From a virus, in the IMG/VR virus record IMGVR_UViG_3300019761_000005, positions 1 through 35,935 of that record: 35,935 nucleotides of DNA; one strand, written 5' to 3'. The notes below the pieces were generated by a model, which saw nothing but the letters and a program-made list of their open reading frames with translations, searched no databases and was not told where the DNA came from. Shown one piece after another: positions 1,429 through 35,935 of this stretch. Within the stretch, counting starts at the first letter, position 1. Each line of letters starts with the position of its first letter. The position numbers were made by a program, and so were the translations under genes.

Positions 1429-1452
1429 TAGAACACCTCGTGAGATGCTCTA
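1429..1452 (-). other. Intercistronic hairpin
   Basis: On the minus strand TAGAGCATCT and AGGTGTTCTA form a 10-bp stem (two G-U pairs) around a CACG loop, between the Gly-rich gene and the 42-residue gene, followed by TTGAGTTTTATT. It could be a weak terminator or an mRNA processing/stability hairpin. The wobbles pair only in the minus-strand RNA, which fits the direction of the operon. Confidence 0.5.
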
Positions 1453-1461
1453 TGAATGTTA

Positions 1462-1650
1462 CTAGCTATAGCCAGAGCCAGAGCCATAGCCAGAGCCATC
1501 GCCAGAGCCATCGCCAGAGCCATAGCCAGAGCCATAGCCAGAGCCATAGCCATCGCCATAGCCAGAGCCATAGCCATCGCCAGAGCCAGAGCCATGGCCA
1601 GAGCCATTCTTGTTTATTATGTCTTTAATTTTGTTTATTTGTTGTCGCAT
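1462..1650 (-). CDS. Gly-X dipeptide repeat protein
   Basis: 62 residues: a short basic head (MRQQINKIKDIINKN) followed by about 23 consecutive Gly-X dipeptides in which X is Ser, Tyr or Asp (one His), ending in S. I chose this frame among the several open ones because it is on the operon strand, has a GAAGAGG site 9 bases before the ATG, and overlaps the upstream gene by 26 bases as its neighbours do. Low-complexity Gly/Ser/Tyr tails are typical of flexible or condensate-forming segments; nothing here shows a function. Confidence 0.6.
   Translation of the reverse strand: MRQQINKIKDIINKNGSGHGSGSGDGYGSGYGDGYGSGYGSGYGSGDGSGDGSGYGSGSGYS
1465..1608. repeat. Hexanucleotide tandem repeat (24 units)
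   Basis: 144 bases made of 24 six-base units, mostly GCCAGA, GCCATA and GCCATC on the plus strand. Because the unit is six bases, gain or loss of a unit keeps the reading frame, and several frames on both strands stay open across it. It is much richer in GC than its surroundings and encodes the Gly-X tail. Confidence 0.95.
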
Positions 1651-2065: not shown

Positions 2066-2145
2066 ACTATAACAAACCCAACCAACAAAGTAAAGCTTTT
2101 TAAGTTCTTCTTGGTTTAAATTGGGTTGTTGTTACTTTTGGTTAC
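2066..2145 (-). promoter_or_regulatory. Promoter with GTAAC-N5-GTAAC upstream element (site A)
   Basis: Minus strand: GTAACCAAAAGTAAC (2145-2131), 59 bp, then -10 TATAGT (2071-2066) preceded by TTTGT; a -35-like TTTACT sits 17 bp upstream of the -10. The same 15-mer and the same 59-bp spacing occur at sites B and C. The element overlaps the stop codon of the upstream gene. Confidence 0.75.
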
Positions 2146-3446: not shown

Positions 3447-3699
3447 TAAATTAAACCCACTAAATAGGCTTGATTTAATTTAATACGTGGCGCAGCTTTG
3501 GACAACAAGACCACGTATTAATACTTTAATAAATTTATATGTCACATACCTATCGAAACTTAGATATGTAGGATTAGCCTTTCGGCAACTTTGGCTGACG
3601 TGCATACTATTCCTTTGTTTTTCTTGGTAGGAAATCGGAATAGTCGAGATAGCACACAAGCGAGGACACTTTATGCCCTCTGGTTTGTGCTAAATCCTA
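3447..3699 (-). ncRNA. Structured RNA region: four-way junction plus three hairpins
   Basis: No gene fits in 3427-3701. A stem P1 (3693-3699 with 3569-3575, 7 bp) encloses three hairpins: 3686-3692/3650-3656 (7 bp, with an inner GAGG/CCTC), 3637-3644/3606-3613 (8 bp) and 3593-3596/3576-3579 (4 bp). Two of these abut P1 with no gap. Outside are 3561-3569/3544-3552 (9 bp, one wobble), 3511-3520/3481-3490 (10 bp perfect) and 3474-3482/3447-3455 (9 bp). The wobble pairs only in minus-strand RNA. Class unknown; a leader, a stand-alone RNA or a structured DNA origin are all possible. Confidence 0.7.
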
Positions 3700-3701
3700 T
3701 T

Positions 3702-4268
3702 TTAGCCTTTAAATGTTTCAGGTAAATTTTTATGAGTTGTTAAGATGAAATCTTTCCAAATTTTCCACCACTCTAAAGCACCACTACCCATTCTTGAAAT
3801 TACTTCATCTGAAAACTTTTCCCATTGCTCTACTTTATGTACTTGACAGCCTATTTTTATAAACTCTGATGTTAAAATTACATAATATGTTGAGATATTA
3901 ATCATTGCATATTTGGTTGTTTTTTGACCGAATATAGAAAGCGACTGACCAACTTTAAGCGACTCACCAACTTGAAGCCACTCACCAACTTCAAGCGACT
4001 CACCAACTTCAAGCGACTCACCAACTTTAAGCGACTCACCAACTTCAAGCGACTCACCAACTTTAAGCGACTCACCAACTTTAAGCCACTTGCCAACTTT
4101 AAGCCACTTGCCAACTTTAAGCGACTTACAAATAATAGTTTTTTTTATAATTAGTGGTACTTTAATTTCGATATGTGCTTCAATATCTATAATATCTACA
4201 TCTAAACTAAAAAAATATCTCTCTTTTTTGATTCCTTTAAAATTCTCATCAATGATTATCTCTTTCAT
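3702..4268 (-). CDS. Six-residue-repeat (solenoid-like) phage protein
   Basis: 188 residues. An N-terminal ~47-residue region leads into ten tandem copies of [KEQ][SW]L[KEQ]VG (about residues 48-109), likely to stack as a beta-solenoid. A C-terminal domain follows (IKIGCQVHKVEQW, then WWKIWKDF) resembling the end of other phage proteins that carry LxVGGxL-type repeats. Function unknown. I chose the second of two closely spaced ATGs because AAGGAG lies 6 bases before it and abuts the first. The gene has its own promoter (site B) and is followed by the structured RNA region. Confidence 0.75.
   Translation of the reverse strand: MKEIIIDENFKGIKKERYFFSLDVDIIDIEAHIEIKVPLIIKKTIICKSLKVGKWLKVGKWLKVGESLKVGESLEVGESLKVGESLEVGESLEVGEWLQVGESLKVGQSLSIFGQKTTKYAMINISTYYVILTSEFIKIGCQVHKVEQWEKFSDEVISRMGSGALEWWKIWKDFILTTHKNLPETFKG
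3942..4133. repeat. 18-bp tandem repeat coding SLKVGE units
   Basis: Roughly ten copies of an 18-base unit (plus strand AACTTTAAGCGACTCACC and variants with AACTTCAAGC or GCCACTTGCC). Copies differ by a few third-position and K/E codon changes, so the array has diverged but keeps its reading frame. Confidence 0.9.
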
Positions 4269-4286: not shown

Positions 4287-4366
4287 ATTATTACAAACCT
4301 AGCTTTTAAATGCAAGGATTTTAGCTAGGGTTATGGTTTAGTTTTTATTTTGTTACTTTTGGTTAC
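4287..4366 (-). promoter_or_regulatory. Promoter with GTAAC-N5-GTAAC upstream element (site B)
   Basis: Minus strand: GTAACCAAAAGTAAC (4366-4352), exactly 59 bp, then -10 AATAAT (4292-4287) preceded by GGTTTGT, with -35 TTGCAT (4315-4310) at 17-bp spacing. A 7-bp inverted repeat CCTAGCT...AGCTAGG (4298-4304 and 4323-4329) brackets the -35 and looks like an operator. The element lies 3 bases after the stop of the upstream gene. Confidence 0.75.
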
Positions 4367-6680: not shown

Positions 6681-6871
6681 TACTTATCCTTCTCAATTTC
6701 TTTTTCCAACTTCTTAACGTCTCTTAAAGTAGCCTCTCTCATAATCTGAGAGAAACTAATTTTATGTTCTCTGTCTGATTTACTTGCATTTACTTTTTTG
6801 ATAATTCCCTCTATCCACTCTGAATCATCATAAGTAAACTTAGTGTTTTTAACCTCTGTTAGTTTTGCCAT
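6680..6871 (-). CDS. Hypothetical small protein, first gene of leftward operon
   Basis: 63 residues, basic and helical in the second half (MREATLRDVKKLEKEIEKDK). It is the first gene left of the divergent promoter region, with a strong AAAGGAG site. Position suggests a very early gene. No motif recognised. Confidence 0.78.
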   Translation of the reverse strand: MAKLTEVKNTKFTYDDSEWIEGIIKKVNASKSDREHKISFSQIMREATLRDVKKLEKEIEKDK

Positions 6872-7034
6872 TCTATATCTCCTTTTTTTAATTGATTAGA
6901 AATTGTAACATGATAAAAATAAAACTATGCTTAAAAAAGATTACTTTTTATTTTACTTTGAGTATGCTATATTGTAAGCTATATTTAAGATTACTTCGTG
7001 TAAACTGCTTTTATTAATTTAAAGGAGTAGAGAG
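6872..7034. promoter_or_regulatory. Divergent promoter/operator region
   Basis: This is the only divergent gene junction apart from the moron island, with transcription leaving both ways. Rightward -10 candidates are TATATT at 6968-6973 (with TGC before it, an extended -10) and at 6980-6985. Leftward candidate is TACAAT (minus strand of 6902-6907). Direct repeats: AAGATTACTT at 6937-6946 and 6987-6996 (50 bp apart), and GCTATATT at 6966-6973 and 6978-6985 (12 bp apart). A GTAAC half-site at 6905-6909 lies 58 bp before the first TATATT. Confidence 0.7.
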
Positions 7035-7256: not shown

Positions 7257-7266
7257 GGAGATTGAG

Positions 7267-7638
7267 ATGAGTGAGATTATTAGTAAAGAGTTGTTGAGTG
7301 CGGTTTTAGGATACAGAATTAACAAGGTTAGTTTGTACAATAAAAGAAATAAATCAATTAATGTAACTGGTAAAACTGAAAAATATTGCCCAAATACAGA
7401 AGCTTGGGGCATATATGAACTAGTTCATAAGTGTAAAGAGTGGGCTTGGCATAATGGATTTGTAATTTGTGAAATAGGGGATACAACAAAAGTGTATGAT
7501 AGGTCAACAAAGTACGAACTGTTTTATATACAGAATAATGACCAATATAATAATTTTATTCCTTACGATACCAGACTAGTCTTTAAAGTAACTCAATGGA
7601 TATTAGACAACAAGGTTAAACAATGCAAGGAAAATTAA
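7267..7638 (+). CDS. Hypothetical protein (parent of the 10135 fragment)
   Basis: 123 residues starting MSEIISKELLSAVLGYRI. A longer in-frame start exists at 7231, but AAGGAG lies just before the ATG at 7267. The central segment (AWGIYELVHKCKEWAWHNGF) is typical of phage proteins of unknown function. The first 30 bases of this gene are repeated at 10134-10163, where they head a broken copy. It overlaps the HTH gene by 16 bases. Confidence 0.8.
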   Translation: MSEIISKELLSAVLGYRINKVSLYNKRNKSINVTGKTEKYCPNTEAWGIYELVHKCKEWAWHNGFVICEIGDTTKVYDRSTKYELFYIQNNDQYNNFIPYDTRLVFKVTQWILDNKVKQCKEN

Positions 7639-7991
7639 GAACATTCAAAACCAACAGCCAAAACTCAAAGATTCTAGCCTACTTAAAAACTGGCAAAACT
7701 TTAACAGTTGCACAGGGTCGAAAACTTGGCTTCGGGGATAACACGAGAAGCAGAATTTCAGAGATTAAAGAAGCTGGGTATCCAATAGAATCAAAACAAG
7801 TAAAGTTTGATGGTGGATTCATAGCACGATACAACATGAGCCGTTCATGGTTCTTGGAGCAAATCGGGGTTTGTCACGTTGTTTTCAAAGACAAAGACAA
7901 TAATTATGCGTTTGATAAAAACGGAAACTTAGAGTATTTAGCACGAGTTGTTAAAGATTTAGAGAATGGCTTTACTGCTGTTCTATTTTAG
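7623..7991 (+). CDS. Helix-turn-helix (HTH_39-like) DNA-binding protein
   Basis: 122 residues. Residues 12-57 (SQNSKILAYLKTGKTLTVAQ ... RSRISEIKEAGYPI) match the HTH_39 pattern: QN..IL.yLk.G..lT...a......RisEi...Gy.I. The rest (about 60 residues) is unassigned. It is the only clear DNA-binding regulator in the genome, so it is a candidate, by inference only, to act on the GTAAC repeats or the divergent region. Confidence 0.8.
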   Translation: MQGKLRTFKTNSQNSKILAYLKTGKTLTVAQGRKLGFGDNTRSRISEIKEAGYPIESKQVKFDGGFIARYNMSRSWFLEQIGVCHVVFKDKDNNYAFDKNGNLEYLARVVKDLENGFTAVLF

Positions 7992-8545: not shown

Positions 8546-8568
8546 TATTAACATTTTCAGCGATAGAA

Positions 8569-8598
8569 TTAGACTTTTAAGGAGTTTTTTGCTATAAT
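8569..8598 (+). promoter_or_regulatory. Sigma70-like promoter for candidate small RNA
   Basis: TTAGAC at 8569-8574, an 18-bp spacer, and a perfect TATAAT at 8593-8598. Start expected near 8605. It faces a terminator at 8619-8671 with no open frame between, and lies 24 bases after the stop of the YopX gene. Confidence 0.65.
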
Positions 8599-8604
8599 AT
8601 GGTT

Positions 8605-8671
8605 TCTATACTCACTTTAAGCCCAATGAATTTTAAAATCGGAGACGTGGGAGTCGTCTAGTTGGGTTTTT
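8605..8671 (+). ncRNA. Candidate small RNA (about 67 nt) with intrinsic terminator
   Basis: From the promoter at 8569-8598 to a terminator: outer stem 8619-8626 with 8662-8669 (AAGCCCAA/TTGGGTTT, one G-U), inner stem AGACG/CGTCT around a UGGGAGU loop, then a run of five T. The loop carries GGGAG, which resembles a ribosome binding site and could pair with a CUCCC sequence. It could instead be a terminator for the yopX transcript, with promoter and hairpin as separate elements. Confidence 0.55.
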
Positions 8672-8710
8672 GTATAGTATAATACAAAATTAAGTTTTAA
8701 TAATTTATAG

Positions 8711-8794
8711 AATACTCTTTTGATTGAGTTTAATCTATGGCTAGGCTTCTTAGTCATTAGAGTGTTTTATTAAGTTATTGTAATAGTCTAGCCA
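8711..8794 (+). other. Possible pseudoknot leader or origin region
   Basis: Two interleaved pairings: AATACTCT (8711-8718) with AGAGTGTT (8759-8766), and TGGCTAG (8738-8744) with CTAGCCA (8788-8794), 8 and 7 bp, arranged as an H-type pseudoknot or as alternatives. A TATAAT at 8678-8683 lies upstream. It sits in the 311-base gap before the replication-type gene at 8857; I see no gene in it. Confidence 0.4.
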
Positions 8795-8856
8795 ACTATC
8801 TTTATTTATCAATCACTTAAATTTATTAATGTTCTGGCAAAACTAAAAGGTCAAAT

Positions 8857-9633
8857 ATGAGAAAATCTTTTTTACTGCATATTGATTCTTTATGTATATT
8901 AGACGATTTGACGGATGAGCAAAAAGGTCAATTATTTAATGCTATATATCAGTTTCAATTAGGTAATAAAATAGAGTTATCATCTATAATTAAAATTGCA
9001 TTTAGTCAATTTAAAAACCAATTTATGAGAGATGCCGAAAAGTATGAAAAGACTTGTGAGGCTCGAAAATTAGCAGGTTCTAAAGGTGGTAAGCAAAAAG
9101 TAGCAAATGCTACCAACTCTAAGCAAAAAGTAGCAAACGTAGCAGAGAGTGATAATGATAGTAAGAGTAAGAATAAGAGTGATAGTAAGAATAAAGAAGA
9201 ACCTATTAAACCTTTAGAAAATCTAAAGGACGAGTTTGAACCAATATGGAAAGATTATTCACTAACCTTTTTAAAAGCTAAAGGAAGAGGCGGAGGAGTT
9301 AAGAAAAAGGCTAAGGCTAATTTTAATAAGCTAATAGCTAAATATTCTTTGACTCAAATTTTAGATTTAATAGAGGCTCATAAAAAACTTAAAATAGGAC
9401 ATAAGGATTTAGAAAGACTTTTAACGATTAATTACATGAAGCAATTCTTAGAAGATAGTACAACCGCTCCTACTGGTTTAGTTCCCATTGATTGGATAGG
9501 TAAAAAATTTATATACGGGGAATACAGATGTGAGTTTACCGAAAAAGGATATTTTAATATAACCCAAGATTATGAAGTCACAAACACACAAGATGTAAAA
9601 AATATAATTGAAGGAATCAAGAATGCAGGATAG
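8857..9633 (+). CDS. DUF6291-type, probable replication initiation protein
   Basis: 258 residues. The N-terminal ~75 residues match DUF6291 (SFLLHIDSLCILDDLTDEQKGQLF ... FSQFKNQFMRDAEKYEKTCEARK with AGSKGGK after it), a domain found at the start of phage replication and DnaC-loader-like proteins. A Lys/Ser/Asn-rich linker (about 80-115) joins a helical C-terminal domain with FEPIWKDYSLTFLKAKGRGGG. No DnaC-type ATPase follows. Upstream lies a structured region that could be its leader or an origin. The ribosome binding site is AAAAGG. Confidence 0.78.
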   Translation: MRKSFLLHIDSLCILDDLTDEQKGQLFNAIYQFQLGNKIELSSIIKIAFSQFKNQFMRDAEKYEKTCEARKLAGSKGGKQKVANATNSKQKVANVAESDNDSKSKNKSDSKNKEEPIKPLENLKDEFEPIWKDYSLTFLKAKGRGGGVKKKAKANFNKLIAKYSLTQILDLIEAHKKLKIGHKDLERLLTINYMKQFLEDSTTAPTGLVPIDWIGKKFIYGEYRCEFTEKGYFNITQDYEVTNTQDVKNIIEGIKNAG

Positions 9634-10034: not shown

Positions 10035-10115
10035 GTTACTTTAAGTAATACTATTTAAAAACCAAGCAAATAAGCCTTGAATTAATTGCTATTACGTAAA
10101 GATAGCTGGTAGAAT
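10035..10115 (+). promoter_or_regulatory. Degenerate GTAAC-type promoter (site E)
   Basis: GTTACTTTAAGTAAT at 10035-10049, then 60 bp, then TAGAAT at 10110-10115 with TTGCTA (10086-10091) 18 bp upstream as a -35. It points at the broken reading frame at 10135. The element is imperfect (GTTAC...GTAAT), consistent with decay after its gene was lost. Confidence 0.45.
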
Positions 10116-10134
10116 AAAATAAAAAGGATAGAGG

Positions 10135-10191
10135 ATGAGTGAGATTATTAGTAAAGAGTTGTTTGCTATGAAGACGATATTGAGATTATAA
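10135..10191 (+). pseudogene. Truncated duplicate of the 7267 gene (18 codons)
   Basis: ATGAGTGAGATTATTAGTAA and the bases after it, to 10163, are identical to the start of the gene at 7267 (30 identical bases including one before the ATG). The copy then diverges and stops after 18 codons (MSEIISKELFAMKTILRL). It is still preceded by AAAAAGGA and by the site E promoter, so it looks like the stump of a deleted paralogue. Confidence 0.7.
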
Positions 10192-10271
10192 GTAACCAAA
10201 AGTAACCATTCCGAAATACTTTACCATAAAGGGCAGTTTTGCTTTGTGTATTTCTTGTGGTGTGTTATAGT
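10192..10271 (+). promoter_or_regulatory. Promoter with GTAAC-N5-GTAAC upstream element (site C)
   Basis: GTAACCAAAAGTAAC at 10192-10206 directly after the stop of the broken frame, exactly 59 bp, then -10 TATAGT (10266-10271) preceded by GGTGTGT; a weak -35 (TTTGTG) is at 17-bp spacing. Same element and spacing as sites A and B but on the opposite strand, so it follows gene direction and not genome position. Confidence 0.75.
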
Positions 10272-10299: not shown

Positions 10300-10728
10300 A
10301 TGGAAAAAGAATGTAATTTTGAAAAGTTTGGTTTTGAGAAGCCTGACTTTGAGTGTGAGTTATTAAAGAAAGACAAATTTGATTATATTTTTGGTTTTGT
10401 AGGTGATAATTGTTTATTGTGGCTTGAAAGTGGAAAGTGCTTTATGGCTACGCATAGTAATGAACAGGATATGCCTGAGTATAACCTAACCCCTATTAAA
10501 AAAGAGTGGTATGAAGATGCTGATAATTTTCCTGAAGTAGTTAAAAATGATGATGGTAGAATAGAATTAGCTATAGGATTTGACAAAAATAGACATATTT
10601 TTCTTTTTAGAGGAGATGATTATAGTAATATTTGTAATGGATGGAGAAAAATATTTAGTATTGAAAGATTTACTAGTGATTTAACAGTTAGTGACTTAAA
10701 AGAATTACAATCTAAATATAAACTATGA
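10300..10728 (+). CDS. Hypothetical protein under site C promoter
   Basis: 142 residues, acidic, with FGFVGDNCLLWLESGKCFMA and a YNLTPIKKEWYEDADNFPEV segment that resembles other phage proteins of unknown function. The site C promoter and an AAAAGGAG site drive it alone, and the convergent terminator at 10769 ends it. A stand-alone transcription unit at the end of the rightward operon is typical of an accessory gene. Function unknown. Confidence 0.8.
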   Translation: MEKECNFEKFGFEKPDFECELLKKDKFDYIFGFVGDNCLLWLESGKCFMATHSNEQDMPEYNLTPIKKEWYEDADNFPEVVKNDDGRIELAIGFDKNRHIFLFRGDDYSNICNGWRKIFSIERFTSDLTVSDLKELQSKYKL

Positions 10729-22810: not shown

Positions 22811-23701
22811 TTAAACCATTGTGTATTGTACTTTGATAACACCTTCGTTATCAATAATCACAGAAGAACCTTTAAAGTCTCCAGATGATAAGTACGATTT
22901 CTTTTGAGGAACCCAATCAACAGATGTTTGCATCTCGATTCCGATTGCTTCTCCAACTGATGCTTTATGCCAAGCAAACGCATCAACAACATCCCCAGCT
23001 ACAGGATAAGTACCAGCACCACCATGAGGTAAACCGCCTTCTTTTCTTCTACCAATTTTCTTAAAGTTTAGCCCGTAGAAAGAACCTATAGAACCTCTCA
23101 TAAGAGCCTGTACAGTTGTATAATCAGATGAAGTTAGTTTTGTATCTGAAAGTAATGATTTAAAACCATTTGCGTTCATTGCAACATATCTTTCTTCTTC
23201 TGGCACTTCTAAATCATCGAATCTCTCACCAATCGCTTGTAATTTATCAAGATTCATACCAGATGATGCTCCACCTACACTTGTAGCTACTAATAAACCT
23301 TCTGTCTCTGCAGGAGTTTCACTAAATGTACCTGCCGCCATTGCGTCAATACAAATCTGGTCTCTTCTTCTACCAATTGCTTTTTTGATTGTGTCAGATA
23401 ATTCTGAAATCTCATCAGGTAAAACTTCTTTTTGTTTGAAAATATCAGTATATTCTGATGCTTCCCAATCAGTTAAAGTTGCTTCAACCTTACTGTGGTC
23501 TACATTCATCGCGATTACATCACTTGAAGGTGCTGTTCTCTGTGATGCTTCACCTTTACCCATTCTGTTAAATGTGGCTTTCGAACCTGTTACATTGTTT
23601 CTTTGTCTGAAACACCCTCTAAGTACTCCCATTCCTTGATAGTCGTGCTTAGTCATTGTGTCAAATTGCGTAACTGCAATATTGTTTAAAAACTGACTCA
23701 T
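22811..23701 (-). CDS. Major capsid protein
   Basis: 296 residues, HK97-fold phage capsid type. Seen: an N-terminal arm, VEATLTDWEASEYTDIF, a helix segment IKKAIGRRRDQICIDAMAAG (spine-like), ERYVAMNANGFKSLLSD, and a C-terminal WHKASVGEAIGIEMQT followed by the closing strands. It forms the icosahedral shell. I chose the second ATG (23701): AAGGAG lies 7 bases before it but only 1 base before the first ATG at 23707. Its leader is about 150 bases long with several inverted repeats. The scaffold gene is separated from it by the plus-strand island. Confidence 0.92.
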   Translation of the reverse strand: MSQFLNNIAVTQFDTMTKHDYQGMGVLRGCFRQRNNVTGSKATFNRMGKGEASQRTAPSSDVIAMNVDHSKVEATLTDWEASEYTDIFKQKEVLPDEISELSDTIKKAIGRRRDQICIDAMAAGTFSETPAETEGLLVATSVGGASSGMNLDKLQAIGERFDDLEVPEEERYVAMNANGFKSLLSDTKLTSSDYTTVQALMRGSIGSFYGLNFKKIGRRKEGGLPHGGAGTYPVAGDVVDAFAWHKASVGEAIGIEMQTSVDWVPQKKSYLSSGDFKGSSVIIDNEGVIKVQYTMV

Positions 23702-23863
23702 AGTCATTCTCCTTGTTTTAATTAAAGATAATATTGCTGTTTGCTTTGGGTATCTCCCGAAAAAATCAGGAGGTCATAGCTAATAGCTACTAACTTCCAA
23801 ACTTTTTCAGGCTCTTGTGAGGTATCTGTGTAGTTTGTAAATTAAAATATTACCTCTATTATA
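23702..23863 (-). promoter_or_regulatory. Capsid gene promoter and structured leader
   Basis: Minus-strand TATAAT (23863-23858) with no good -35. About 150 bases of leader follow, carrying TAGCTATTAGCTA and a stem CTCCTG/CGGGAG around ATTTTTT, before the AAGGAG and ATG at 23701. The site D element lies 11 bp upstream of the -10, where a -35 would be. A strong separate capsid promoter is needed because the island interrupts the late operon. Confidence 0.6.
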
Positions 23864-23874
23864 TCATATAATTA

Positions 23875-23955
23875 GTAACTTTTGGTAGCAGTAAGGTAAA
23901 TTTATTTAGAATATTTATTAAATTTCTTCTTTTTGGATTGATTTTGTGTTATATT
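23875..23955 (+). promoter_or_regulatory. GTAAC-type promoter of the plus-strand island (site D)
   Basis: GTAACTTTTGGTAGC (23875-23889: GTAAC-N5-GTAGC), 60 bp, then TATATT (23950-23955) preceded by TTTGTGT, much like GGTGTGT before the -10 of site C. It points at the first island gene 20 bases on. The same element overlaps the -35 zone of the capsid promoter on the other strand. Confidence 0.6.
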
Positions 23956-23975: not shown

Positions 23976-24119
23976 ATGAGTTTTACACAACAAAATGAGT
24001 TTAGAACCGAATATTGTATGTGGAGAAAGAAATCAGGAGAGAAATGTATGTATCCTGGTTATTGTAAACATAAATGCTTGAGTGGTTGTTCTATAAAAAA
24101 TAAAAAGGATGTGAAATGA
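23976..24119 (+). CDS. Cysteine-rich small protein (47 aa)
   Basis: 47 residues with five cysteines (14, 24, 30, 34, 38) in a basic context (CMWRKKSGEKCMYPGYC, then KHKCLSGC), probably zinc-binding. It ends in a 4-base ATGA overlap with the next gene, the main evidence that it is real; the ribosome binding site is poor, so it may use a leader-poor start behind the site D promoter. First gene of the island. Confidence 0.65.
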   Translation: MSFTQQNEFRTEYCMWRKKSGEKCMYPGYCKHKCLSGCSIKNKKDVK

Positions 24120-24436
24120 AAGATGAAATTATTTTAAGTTTTATATATCATATTGATAAAGGAAGTTATATTGTTTTAGGATATAGTTTTTTTTATCAAA
24201 AATATTATAGGCTAGGTAGTTTTGAAGCTTATGAGAGAGATTCTGAAGACAAGTGTTACAACGAGTTTTTAGAAAAACATGGGATTGATAAGTTGAAAGA
24301 AGCATGTAGACAAATGATTAAAAAAGAAAGAGAAGTTGCAGGAGAGGATATAAGGAATGAAGATATAAAAAAAAGAATAAGAGCGTGTAATTTATATATA
24401 AAAGGAGTTGATGATGAGACTATTAAGACTTTATAG
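24116..24436 (+). CDS. Hypothetical island protein
   Basis: 106 residues. A Tyr/Phe-rich beta-like N-terminal half (SFIYHIDKGSYIVLGYSFFY) and a charged helical C-terminal half (KKEREVAGEDIRNEDIKKRI). The ribosome binding site is AAAAGGATG. Not recognised. It is part of the eight-gene plus-strand island between scaffold and capsid genes. Confidence 0.72.
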   Translation: MKDEIILSFIYHIDKGSYIVLGYSFFYQKYYRLGSFEAYERDSEDKCYNEFLEKHGIDKLKEACRQMIKKEREVAGEDIRNEDIKKRIRACNLYIKGVDDETIKTL

Positions 24437-24698
24437 GGTTATCTTTTTTATAATGTTTACTTGCTATTTTATAATAGGTTTATTTCCTAATATTACAATT
24501 GCAATTATTGTGTATATAATCACAGGAGATGATGGATATTTTTATGATGCCAATTTTGGAATTATTGAAAAGTTTGATTTTTGGTTTAATGAGAGTATAG
24601 ATAAATTAGAGAAAATAGAAAATCTTACTGCTGGTTTTTATTGTGCAGTAGAACAAGAGTGTATAATTAAGCTATCAGTTGAAGGGGAAAAACAATGA
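24414..24698 (+). CDS. Island membrane protein
   Basis: 94 residues. Two closely spaced membrane helices at about 7-27 and 30-42 (VIFFIMFTCYFIIGLF; ITIAIIVYIITG) are followed by a ~50-residue soluble tail with a cysteine pair region (FYCAVEQECIIKL). I chose the ATG at 24414, 6 bases after AAGGAG, over the ATG at 24411. It would sit in the inner membrane. With the lipoprotein two genes on, it suggests an envelope-directed function such as exclusion of other phages (inference). Confidence 0.68.
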   Translation: MRLLRLYRVIFFIMFTCYFIIGLFPNITIAIIVYIITGDDGYFYDANFGIIEKFDFWFNESIDKLEKIENLTAGFYCAVEQECIIKLSVEGEKQ

Positions 24699-24919
24699 AA
24701 GAGTTTAATATGGATAAGATTAAAGTGTTGTCTAATATGTATAAGGTGCAGTTGTCCGTTATTTGCTTTGAAGGAGAATGGCAGGTAAAATCTTTTTCAT
24801 TTAAAGATAGTAGGTGTAATATTGTTACTGCACATAGAAAAAATATTGAAGAGTGTCTTGATATAATAGTAGTCGAGTTGGAGATATTAAGAAAAGGAGT
24901 GAGTTATGAAACTATTTGA
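24695..24919 (+). CDS. Hypothetical island protein
   Basis: 74 residues (MKEFNMDKIKVLSNMYKVQL...), mixed alpha/beta, not recognised. Its start region GGGAAAAACAATGAAA is repeated word for word at the start of the lipoprotein gene (25066-25081). ATGA overlap with the membrane protein gene upstream. Confidence 0.7.
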   Translation: MKEFNMDKIKVLSNMYKVQLSVICFEGEWQVKSFSFKDSRCNIVTAHRKNIEECLDIIVVELEILRKGVSYETI

Positions 24920-25079
24920 AAATACCGAGGATTTAAATATCGAGCTTTCAGCAGTTGAAAATGTAGCAACTGTTGAATTGTGGTATCCTAGATTAGAACA
25001 TAATATAGATGATGAAATTTGCGATATGGACTGGAAAGAGGTTGCGTTTATTGAGTCTTGGGGAAGGGAAAAACAATGA
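24906..25079 (+). CDS. Small acidic island protein (57 aa)
   Basis: 57 residues, acidic with three Trp (TVELWYPRLEHNIDDEICDM, then MDWKEVAFIESW). AAAAGGAG lies 7 bases before the ATG; a 4-base ATGA overlap joins it to the lipoprotein gene. Not recognised. Confidence 0.7.
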   Translation: MKLFENTEDLNIELSAVENVATVELWYPRLEHNIDDEICDMDWKEVAFIESWGREKQ

Positions 25080-25204
25080 AATATATATTAGTAGTTCTAT
25101 TGCTTCTATTTAGTGGTTGTGCTGATAAAAACAGGATTATAATTAAGTTTATAGATATTCAGATAGTTCAAGAGGATGAGAAAAAAATTAAGGAGTTAAG
25201 ATGA
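25076..25204 (+). CDS. Small lipoprotein (42 aa)
   Basis: 42 residues: MKYILVVLLLLFSGC is a signal peptide with a lipobox (FSGC, Cys15), leaving a 28-residue mature lipopeptide, charged at its end (QEDEKKIKEL). Phage lipoproteins of this size include outer-membrane spanins and superinfection-exclusion proteins. As it lies far from the lysis genes and on the opposite strand, an exclusion or moron role fits better than lysis (inference). Overlaps both neighbours by 4 bases. Confidence 0.75.
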   Translation: MKYILVVLLLLFSGCADKNRIIIKFIDIQIVQEDEKKIKELR

Positions 25205-25497
25205 ATACAGTAGATGAAGTTGAAGAAATAACAAGAGAGAAACTTAGTAAATTATCCAATTCTGCACTTATTGATACTTGTATTGAGCTTATGGATATTA
25301 GGATTGATGACCTTTGCAAAGTAAACGACCTTAAGAAAGAGAATAGGGAATTAAAAGAAGAGTCATTAGAGTATAGAGATGAACGAAACGCATATAAGAG
25401 TAAATATACAGTGCTTAAGAATGGTGATTCTTCTATGGAGATTAAAGTATTAACAGAAAATAAGGAGGAGAATAAAAAAAAGGTTACAGAAGCTTGA
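25201..25497 (+). CDS. Coiled-coil island protein
   Basis: 98 residues, highly charged; residues ~35-65 (CKVNDLKKENRELKEESLEY) look like a leucine-zipper-like coiled coil. An AAGGAG precedes the ATG in the lipoprotein gene. Not recognised. Confidence 0.7.
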   Translation: MNTVDEVEEITREKLSKLSNSALIDTCIELMDIRIDDLCKVNDLKKENRELKEESLEYRDERNAYKSKYTVLKNGDSSMEIKVLTENKEENKKKVTEA

Positions 25498-30752: not shown

Positions 30753-31201
30753 TTATTGACCTTATATAGTTCTGCCATACCTGATTTAACCAACATCTCT
30801 CCAGAATGTTCTGTTTTAGTAGGTGCATAATACCCTAACATTTTATTTAATGTATCAATAGCTTTATTTACTCCCGTAGAGTCATACTTAAACTCTCCAC
30901 TGTTGCCACCACTTTTATCTACTATCATTTCAGCTTGTGATGATTTAGCTATTACACTTTTTAGTTCATCTATTATCCACTCTCTTGTTACTACGTGTTT
31001 CTTTGACTCTTTCTCTTGAAGTTCTTTAAGTCTAAGCGTTACCTTAGCATCTTTTAATAACTTACTTGCATTAACATTAAGTGATGTTTCTTTCCAGGTC
31101 TTTGATGTTGGGTATGCTCTTCTATATGCTTCAGACGCATTGCCTCCAGTATTAACATACTCTTGTATAAAATGCTCTTGCTTAGGTGTTAATGCTCTCA
31201 T
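30749..31201 (-). CDS. terS: Terminase small subunit
   Basis: 150 residues with the Terminase_2 pattern: RALTPKQEHFIQEYVNTGGN then ASEAYRRAYP, AxKLLKDAKVTLRL and a basic EWIIDEL helix. It recognises the packaging site and stimulates TerL. I chose ATG 31201 over a TTG two codons upstream, as GAGGG lies 7 bases before it and the ATG overlaps the upstream stop (ATGA). Confidence 0.92.
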   Translation of the reverse strand: MRALTPKQEHFIQEYVNTGGNASEAYRRAYPTSKTWKETSLNVNASKLLKDAKVTLRLKELQEKESKKHVVTREWIIDELKSVIAKSSQAEMIVDKSGGNSGEFKYDSTGVNKAIDTLNKMLGYYAPTKTEHSGEMLVKSGMAELYKVNK

Positions 31202-35805: not shown

Positions 35806-35935
35806 TTAGTTGTCCTTTATAAGTTCTGGATTTTCATAGATATTTCCTATTACTTCTAATGTTTTCAGATTGCAATTATCTAAAATAATATAATCGTCAT
35901 TTTTGTCATATACAACAAAGCAACCATTAGTAAAT
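35806..35935 (-). CDS. YopX-family protein, C-terminal part
   Basis: Continuation of the gene at 1-310; bases 35892-35935 duplicate 1-44. It encodes the last ~43 residues, including the YopX closing pattern EVIGNIYENPEL. The stop TAA at 35808-35806 abuts the start of the next gene. Joined length is 132 codons with stop, with no frameshift. Confidence 0.93.
   Translation of the reverse strand, partial: FTNGCFVVYDKNDDYIILDNCNLKTLEVIGNIYENPELIKDN
35892..35935. repeat. Terminal overlap, copy 2 (circle closure)
   Basis: Exact copy of bases 1-44. See the copy at the start; it closes the circle. Confidence 0.95.

Follow-up and report, generated by a model that had tools for sequence, protein, structure and literature searches.

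What is the function of a 15-bp element that lies at a fixed distance upstream of several -10 boxes in a phage genome? The window, that is, the whole stretch of DNA analysed here, is a contig of viral origin, 35,935 bases long. Its ends, 1-44 and 35892-35935, are identical (a 44-bp repeat), and L012/G010, an independent contig whose sample belongs to the same series, crosses the end junction at 100% identity. The genome is therefore complete, and either circular or terminally redundant. The closest cellular relative of its terminase is found in a Sulfurimonas endosymbiont assembly (55%). Because of this relative and of the promoter architecture shared with Campylobacterota, described below, a member of the Campylobacterota is the likely host. 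A tail-sheath search of 200 genomes for the host gave no match, and a search of the phage for tRNA genes, as host hints, found none.

The 15-mer GTAACCAAAAGTAAC occurs in three perfect copies, at 2145-2131 (-), 4366-4352 (-) and 10192-10206 (+). These copies had been noticed in a sequence-only reading, which placed each of them exactly 59 bp from a -10 hexamer, added degenerate copies at 10035 and 23875 with a gap of 60 bp, and assigned one accessory gene to each promoter. The three copies are where that reading put them, with no mismatches. The distance of 59 bp is exact for them (TATAGT, AATAAT and TATAGT), while the wider rule is 59-61 bp. Both degenerate copies are real, and both precede extended -10 boxes. 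The promoters, P1 to P5, and a weak sixth candidate are as follows.

2131-2145, minus strand: upstream element of P1, GTAACCAAAAGTAAC, exact match, 38.5 bits in the two-block matrix scan
2066-2074, minus strand: extended -10 of P1, TGT-TATAGT, 59 bp from the element
2094-2089, minus strand: -35-like TTTACT of P1
1625-2038, minus strand: P1-led gene, DUF6948 domain protein of 137 aa (PF22253, E 3.3e-14)
4352-4366, minus strand: upstream element of P2, GTAACCAAAAGTAAC, exact match
4287-4295, minus strand: extended -10 of P2, TGT-AATAAT, 59 bp from the element
4315-4310, minus strand: -35 TTGCAT of P2
3702-4274, minus strand: P2-led gene, SLKVGE-repeat protein of 190 aa
10192-10206, plus strand: upstream element of P3, GTAACCAAAAGTAAC, exact match
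10263-10271, plus strand: extended -10 of P3, TGT-TATAGT, 59 bp from the element
10300-10728, plus strand: P3-led gene, 142 aa, no function assigned, homologues in carriers G410 and G412 (see below)
10035-10049, plus strand: degenerate element of P4, GTTACTTTAAGTAAT, 20.9 bits in the matrix scan
10107-10115, plus strand: extended -10 of P4, TGG-TAGAAT, 60 bp from the element
10135-10191, plus strand: P4-led 18-codon ORF
23875-23889, plus strand: degenerate element of P5, GTAACTTTTGGTAGC, 27.8 bits in the matrix scan
23947-23955, plus strand: extended -10 of P5, TGT-TATATT, 60 bp from the element
23976-24119 (47-aa ORF), then 24116-25497, plus strand: P5-led operon of small genes, antisense to structural genes
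6895-6909, plus strand: weak sixth candidate with one good half site (GTAACA), 16.4 bits in the matrix scan, 58 bp from TGC-TATATT at 6968, upstream of gene 7035

A scan of the window for GTAAC-N5-GTAAC with at most one mismatch gave 7 matches, with 1.5 expected. Among the 67 extended -10 sites in the window, those with the best upstream GTAAC-N5-GTAAC match at 56-63 bp are exactly P1-P5. The -10 hexamers of the three perfect-copy promoters are each directly preceded by TGT, making them extended -10 elements, and a 13-bp block over the -10, GGTNTGTNATANT, has 10 of 13 columns identical when the element is used to align these promoters; 7 of 13 was the highest value among 200,000 random triplets. 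The spacers themselves, with the last 6 bp left out, have diverged (25/53, 19/53 and 13/53 identical positions between the three sites), and therefore no recent block duplication has occurred, as the sequence-only reading also held. The P1 element overlaps the stop codon of gene 2142-2396, and the P5 element is in the divergent region upstream of gene 22811-23707. One accessory gene per promoter is not general: P5 (-10 at 23950) heads an operon, and P4 (-10 at 10110) heads just an 18-codon ORF. Behind P4, a 30-bp exact duplication (7266-7295 = 10134-10163) repeats a gene start, leaving the 18-codon ORF.

Several other features lie near these promoters. Directly downstream of the P2-led gene, 3475-3705 (-) is non-coding and strongly structured (-66.2 kcal/mol, z-score -5.6, several stable hairpins), a candidate structured RNA that matches no Rfam family at the gathering threshold and has no convincing relative. 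Within the P2-led gene, a repeat array at 3939-4132 (-) encodes the SLKVGE units, with copies 87% identical. A degenerate hexamer repeat (GCCATAGCCAGA...) lies at 1440-1610 (-), downstream of the DUF6948 gene; in L136 and L137, too, the same repeat follows or adjoins DUF6948 genes, so gene and repeat move together. The region 8546-8860 is a long non-coding stretch, of which 48 bp are 85% similar to carrier G409 (L138 13011-13056); the part tested for folding, 8590-8700, folds no better than shuffles.

Is this architecture peculiar to one genome? Viral contigs were scanned for GTAAC-N5-GTAAC with TGNTATANT at 58-61 bp. Chance matches aside, the output consisted of four contigs, in which a Shine-Dalgarno sequence and a start codon follow the site.

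G409: 3300019766_000014, two scan matches
G410: 3300019758_000012
G411: 3300046163_000073
G412: 3300019763_000003

The architecture in these carriers is GTNAC-N5-GTAAC(A), 59-61 bp, TGN-TATA[G/A]T, a Shine-Dalgarno sequence and a start, with 3-12 occurrences per contig. The simple rule, applied to whole contigs, finds 3-5 sites in each of them. A two-block matrix at a threshold of at least 16 bits finds about 6, 5, 12, 4 and 5 sites in the window, G409, G410, G411 and G412, with 0.05 sites per genome expected from Markov-simulated sequences; the carriers themselves were the training set of the matrix, which makes their scores partly circular, whereas the following gap histogram is free of this. 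The histogram uses no matrix but an 8-position half-site rule together with a -10 and a start signal, and it takes its expectation from other distances. In the five phages it gives 30 element/-10 pairs at 59-61 bp, compared with 1.1 expected (Poisson p about 6e-32), and a Shine-Dalgarno sequence and start codon are found shortly downstream of nearly every site. The structural genes of G409-G412 are unlike those of the window, distant terminases excepted, and the only protein clusters found in all five carriers are YopX-like and Gp157-like. The coordinated set of promoters with an activator-type site near -79, proposed from the window, is thus borne out, since the same spacing recurs in other phages.

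The exact 15-mer is found in 60 stretches of viral contigs, none of which has the promoter geometry except the sister contig L012. A third viral pattern, GTTAC-N5-GTAAC with TGNTATAAT, was rejected; its matches mostly lack a downstream start codon and are likely due to chance. Related phages that have these genes had been expected to keep the element and its spacing, and here the outcome is mixed. DUF6948 homologues in other phages (L135-L137) lack the element, and the structural relatives of the window by terminase (G003, G005, G008 and G009) have no site of at least 16 bits in the matrix scan, yet the element is present in unrelated phages and in Campylobacterota chromosomes. Therefore, the architecture tracks neither those genes nor that lineage.

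Alignment of 20 sites gives GTnAC[CTA]-N4-GTAACA, a gap of 59-61 bp, a weak, TTG-like -35 at 17-bp spacing, a T/G-rich segment and TG-T-TATA[G/A]T. The two half sites (GTNAC-N5-GTAAC) have a 10-bp period, and in all sites the element is centred near -79, upstream of the -35 and not overlapping it. The phage gaps are 59-61 bp only. The middle base of the first half site may be A, T or C, which leaves each half nearly palindromic. In keeping with this, some elements serve a pair of divergent promoters, about 60 bp to each side. This is seen for the element at 6834-6848 of G409, with promoters at +6910 and -6772, and for that near 30756-30770 of G410, with promoters at +30831 and -30696. In G412 and G417, three GTAAC half sites occur in a row in 10-bp steps (L146 14510-14534 (-) and L152 15480-15504 (-)), which suggests that more than two subunits can bind. 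The driven genes are mostly small and have no function assigned; among their products are DUF6948, YopX, ERF-type annealing and ParB-like proteins. In G410 and G412, many of the driven genes stand alone as small genes antisense to the structural operon, often with 3 nt between the element and the start codon of the adjacent structural gene, for which the element provides the Shine-Dalgarno sequence.

Does the element also occur in host chromosomes? The strict pattern is not enriched in 397 Campylobacterota genomes (4 matches, 5 in the reversed control), and with the phage-type -10 it gave 0 matches and 1 in the control. A half-site search of 130 genomes gave 19 matches and 16 in controls, with 6 of the 19 at sdhA. 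As the chromosomes show no general enrichment, the host set is small, at least for this exact geometry, or has weaker sites. One of the four strict matches, however, precedes a flavoprotein gene of succinate dehydrogenase/fumarate reductase (TIGR01812) and is conserved. Among the sdhA/frdA orthologues of one Campylobacterota family (21 genomes), the element precedes a -10 in 15 of the 16 with readable upstream DNA, with gaps of 59-61 bp (7), 50-51 bp (7) and 71 bp (1), and GTAACA is present at 58-60 bp in 12 of 16 more distant sdhA/frdA loci of the class; the genomes are related, and these counts are not independent events. The gaps of 50-51, 59-61 and 71 bp differ by whole helical turns, a series predicted for a class I activator acting from one helical face. 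This conserved footprint points to a host-encoded activator of class I type. The gene order, sdhA, sdhB and then a cysteine-rich subunit, suggests that the operon is of the SdhABE/MfrABE type. A second sdhA/frdA paralogue lacks the element. Beside sdhA, no response-regulator gene was recognised by eye from N-terminal sequence in four genomes. A serine-transporter promoter was rejected as a conserved host site, since the site is not kept within its family. Another chromosomal promoter (L265, G035:C1:1223207-1223278) has the full element GTTACCATAAGTAACA, with TGATATAAT about 60 bp downstream, and lies upstream of a gene whose first residues resemble a carbon-nitrogen hydrolase.

The mechanism that we propose is as follows. 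The element would be the binding site of a host-encoded response-regulator activator of the OmpR/PhoB type. A dimer would occupy both half sites, which are spaced by 10 bp on a single face of the DNA and centred near -79, and would recruit sigma-70 RNA polymerase from upstream, by class I activation, to promoters whose -35 is weak and whose -10 is extended. The phage accessory genes would then be driven by the same host signal as the SdhABE-type succinate dehydrogenase/fumarate reductase operon. We give this explanation, that one host activator drives both sets of genes, somewhat better than an even chance of being correct. The class I reading had been put forward from the window, and the position near -79 and the whole-turn gap shifts in the host orthologues agree with it; such activation would involve contact with the alpha C-terminal domain of RNA polymerase. 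The element, its spacing, its presence in unrelated phages and the conserved footprint in the host are observations, whereas binding and activation by a protein, its host origin and its RacR or CemR type are inferred.

The element might instead bind a phage-encoded activator, with the carriers swapping the regulator gene along with their accessory genes. The density of sites, which reaches about 12 per 42 kb in G410, is far above that of any chromosome, and HTH_39 proteins are encoded in the window, G410 and G412. The window protein (7623-7991) had been suggested as the binder, within a phage regulon. No regulator is common to all five carriers, however, with no detectable HTH_39 homologue in G409 and G411, and the box before the host sdhA/frdA operons, at the same position, would be left unexplained. 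Neither an HTH_39 binder nor a purely phage regulon is supported, and we regard a phage-encoded activator as unlikely. The protein bound near -79, from host or phage, could also be a repressor, holding the accessory genes off. In C. jejuni, RacR acts as a repressor too, at fumarate genes (PMC5656828), and divergent promoters with a common element occur under repressors as well. The site is, however, well upstream of the -35 and -10, the core promoters have weak -35 boxes, and the helical-step spacing is better explained by contact with RNA polymerase than by occlusion, which makes silencing improbable. It is very improbable that the element bounds a mobile cassette of accessory genes, as a site of recombination or insertion, with the distance to the -10 inherited along with the cassette. 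Such a boundary would suit the position of the elements at gene boundaries, often 3 nt from a neighbour's start codon (G410 and G412), and driven genes that are often lone antisense insertions, but the 60-bp spacers have diverged while the distance is constant to 1 bp, and the host sdhA/frdA promoters have the element without a cassette. Plain duplication or chance, which three identical 15-mers in one 36-kb genome might suggest, is already refuted by the diverged spacers and by the unrelated phages of the carrier scan, which repeat the same gap in the histogram.

A promoter class common to unrelated phages and a conserved host respiratory operon is thus real and, to our knowledge, previously unreported. 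On the host activator explanation, structurally unrelated Campylobacterota phages may have placed their accessory genes under a single host response regulator, one that drives the SdhABE respiratory operon as well, so that these genes would be switched with the energy or redox state of the cell; we offer this broader view tentatively, at a little below even chances. The signature is searchable: in poorly known phages it points to accessory genes, and in Campylobacterota to a conserved site upstream of a central respiratory operon. Should the binder be encoded by the host, host respiratory control would read out phage accessory genes, and the sensing of host physiology by phages of free-living Campylobacterota would become directly testable.

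Which known regulators resemble the proposed activator? The best candidates for the binder are host regulators of the OmpR-family type, RacR or CemR/HP1021, neither of which is proven. RacR, an OmpR-family response regulator, controls the mfrABE fumarate reductase genes (PMC5656828) and binds the C. jejuni ggt promoter about 80 bp upstream of the start site; this promoter has -16/-10 elements only, and its activation requires the upstream RacR site (PMC4456614). The phage promoters are alike in the position of the site, about 80 bp before the start, in the extended -10 and in lacking a conserved -35. The primer GGT104 (-104 fragment, PMC4456614) puts GATAC at -87 to -83, the position expected for the first half. 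GATAC is also the first half in G409 sites, a sequence likeness that covers one half site, read from a primer, and the genes differ from those of the phage. We know of no link of RacR to phages.

The atypical response regulator CemR/HP1021 (Cj1608) is conserved in Campylobacterota and controls TCA and respiratory genes (PMC11334517). The HP1021 box is TGTTWCW, and the best C. jejuni site (Cj1509) is TGTTACA (PMC6052347), the reverse complement of the half site [AT]GTAACA. The element is absent at 20 citrate synthase loci (gltA is a direct C. jejuni target of CemR), and the literature cited here describes no paired boxes 10 bp apart at -79 for CemR/HP1021. RacR and CemR each fit in part, and therefore our claim is limited to a host activator of the OmpR type; that these promoters belong to the RacR or the CemR regulon is not established.

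In the E. coli OmpR box, GTTACAnnnnGTTACA, two GTTAC half sites are spaced by 10 bp (PMC7315122). The half-site form and the 10-bp repeat match the window element, whose reverse complement is GTTACTTTTGGTTAC, while the OmpR consensus TTTTACTTTTTGWAACATAT (PMC5559549) fits it in part only. OmpR is, however, a gammaproteobacterial protein, and the phage promoters have a single site at -79. The Pho box of C. jejuni PhosR consists of GTTTC repeats with an 11-bp period, whereas the period of the phage element is 10 bp. Finally, the driven genes resemble phage morons, which are small genes standing alone under a promoter of their own, often in antisense orientation inside a structural operon; here, too, accessory genes with their own promoter lie between the genes of another operon. 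Morons, however, have independent promoters, whereas the promoters described here have one common upstream regulatory site and a fixed geometry.
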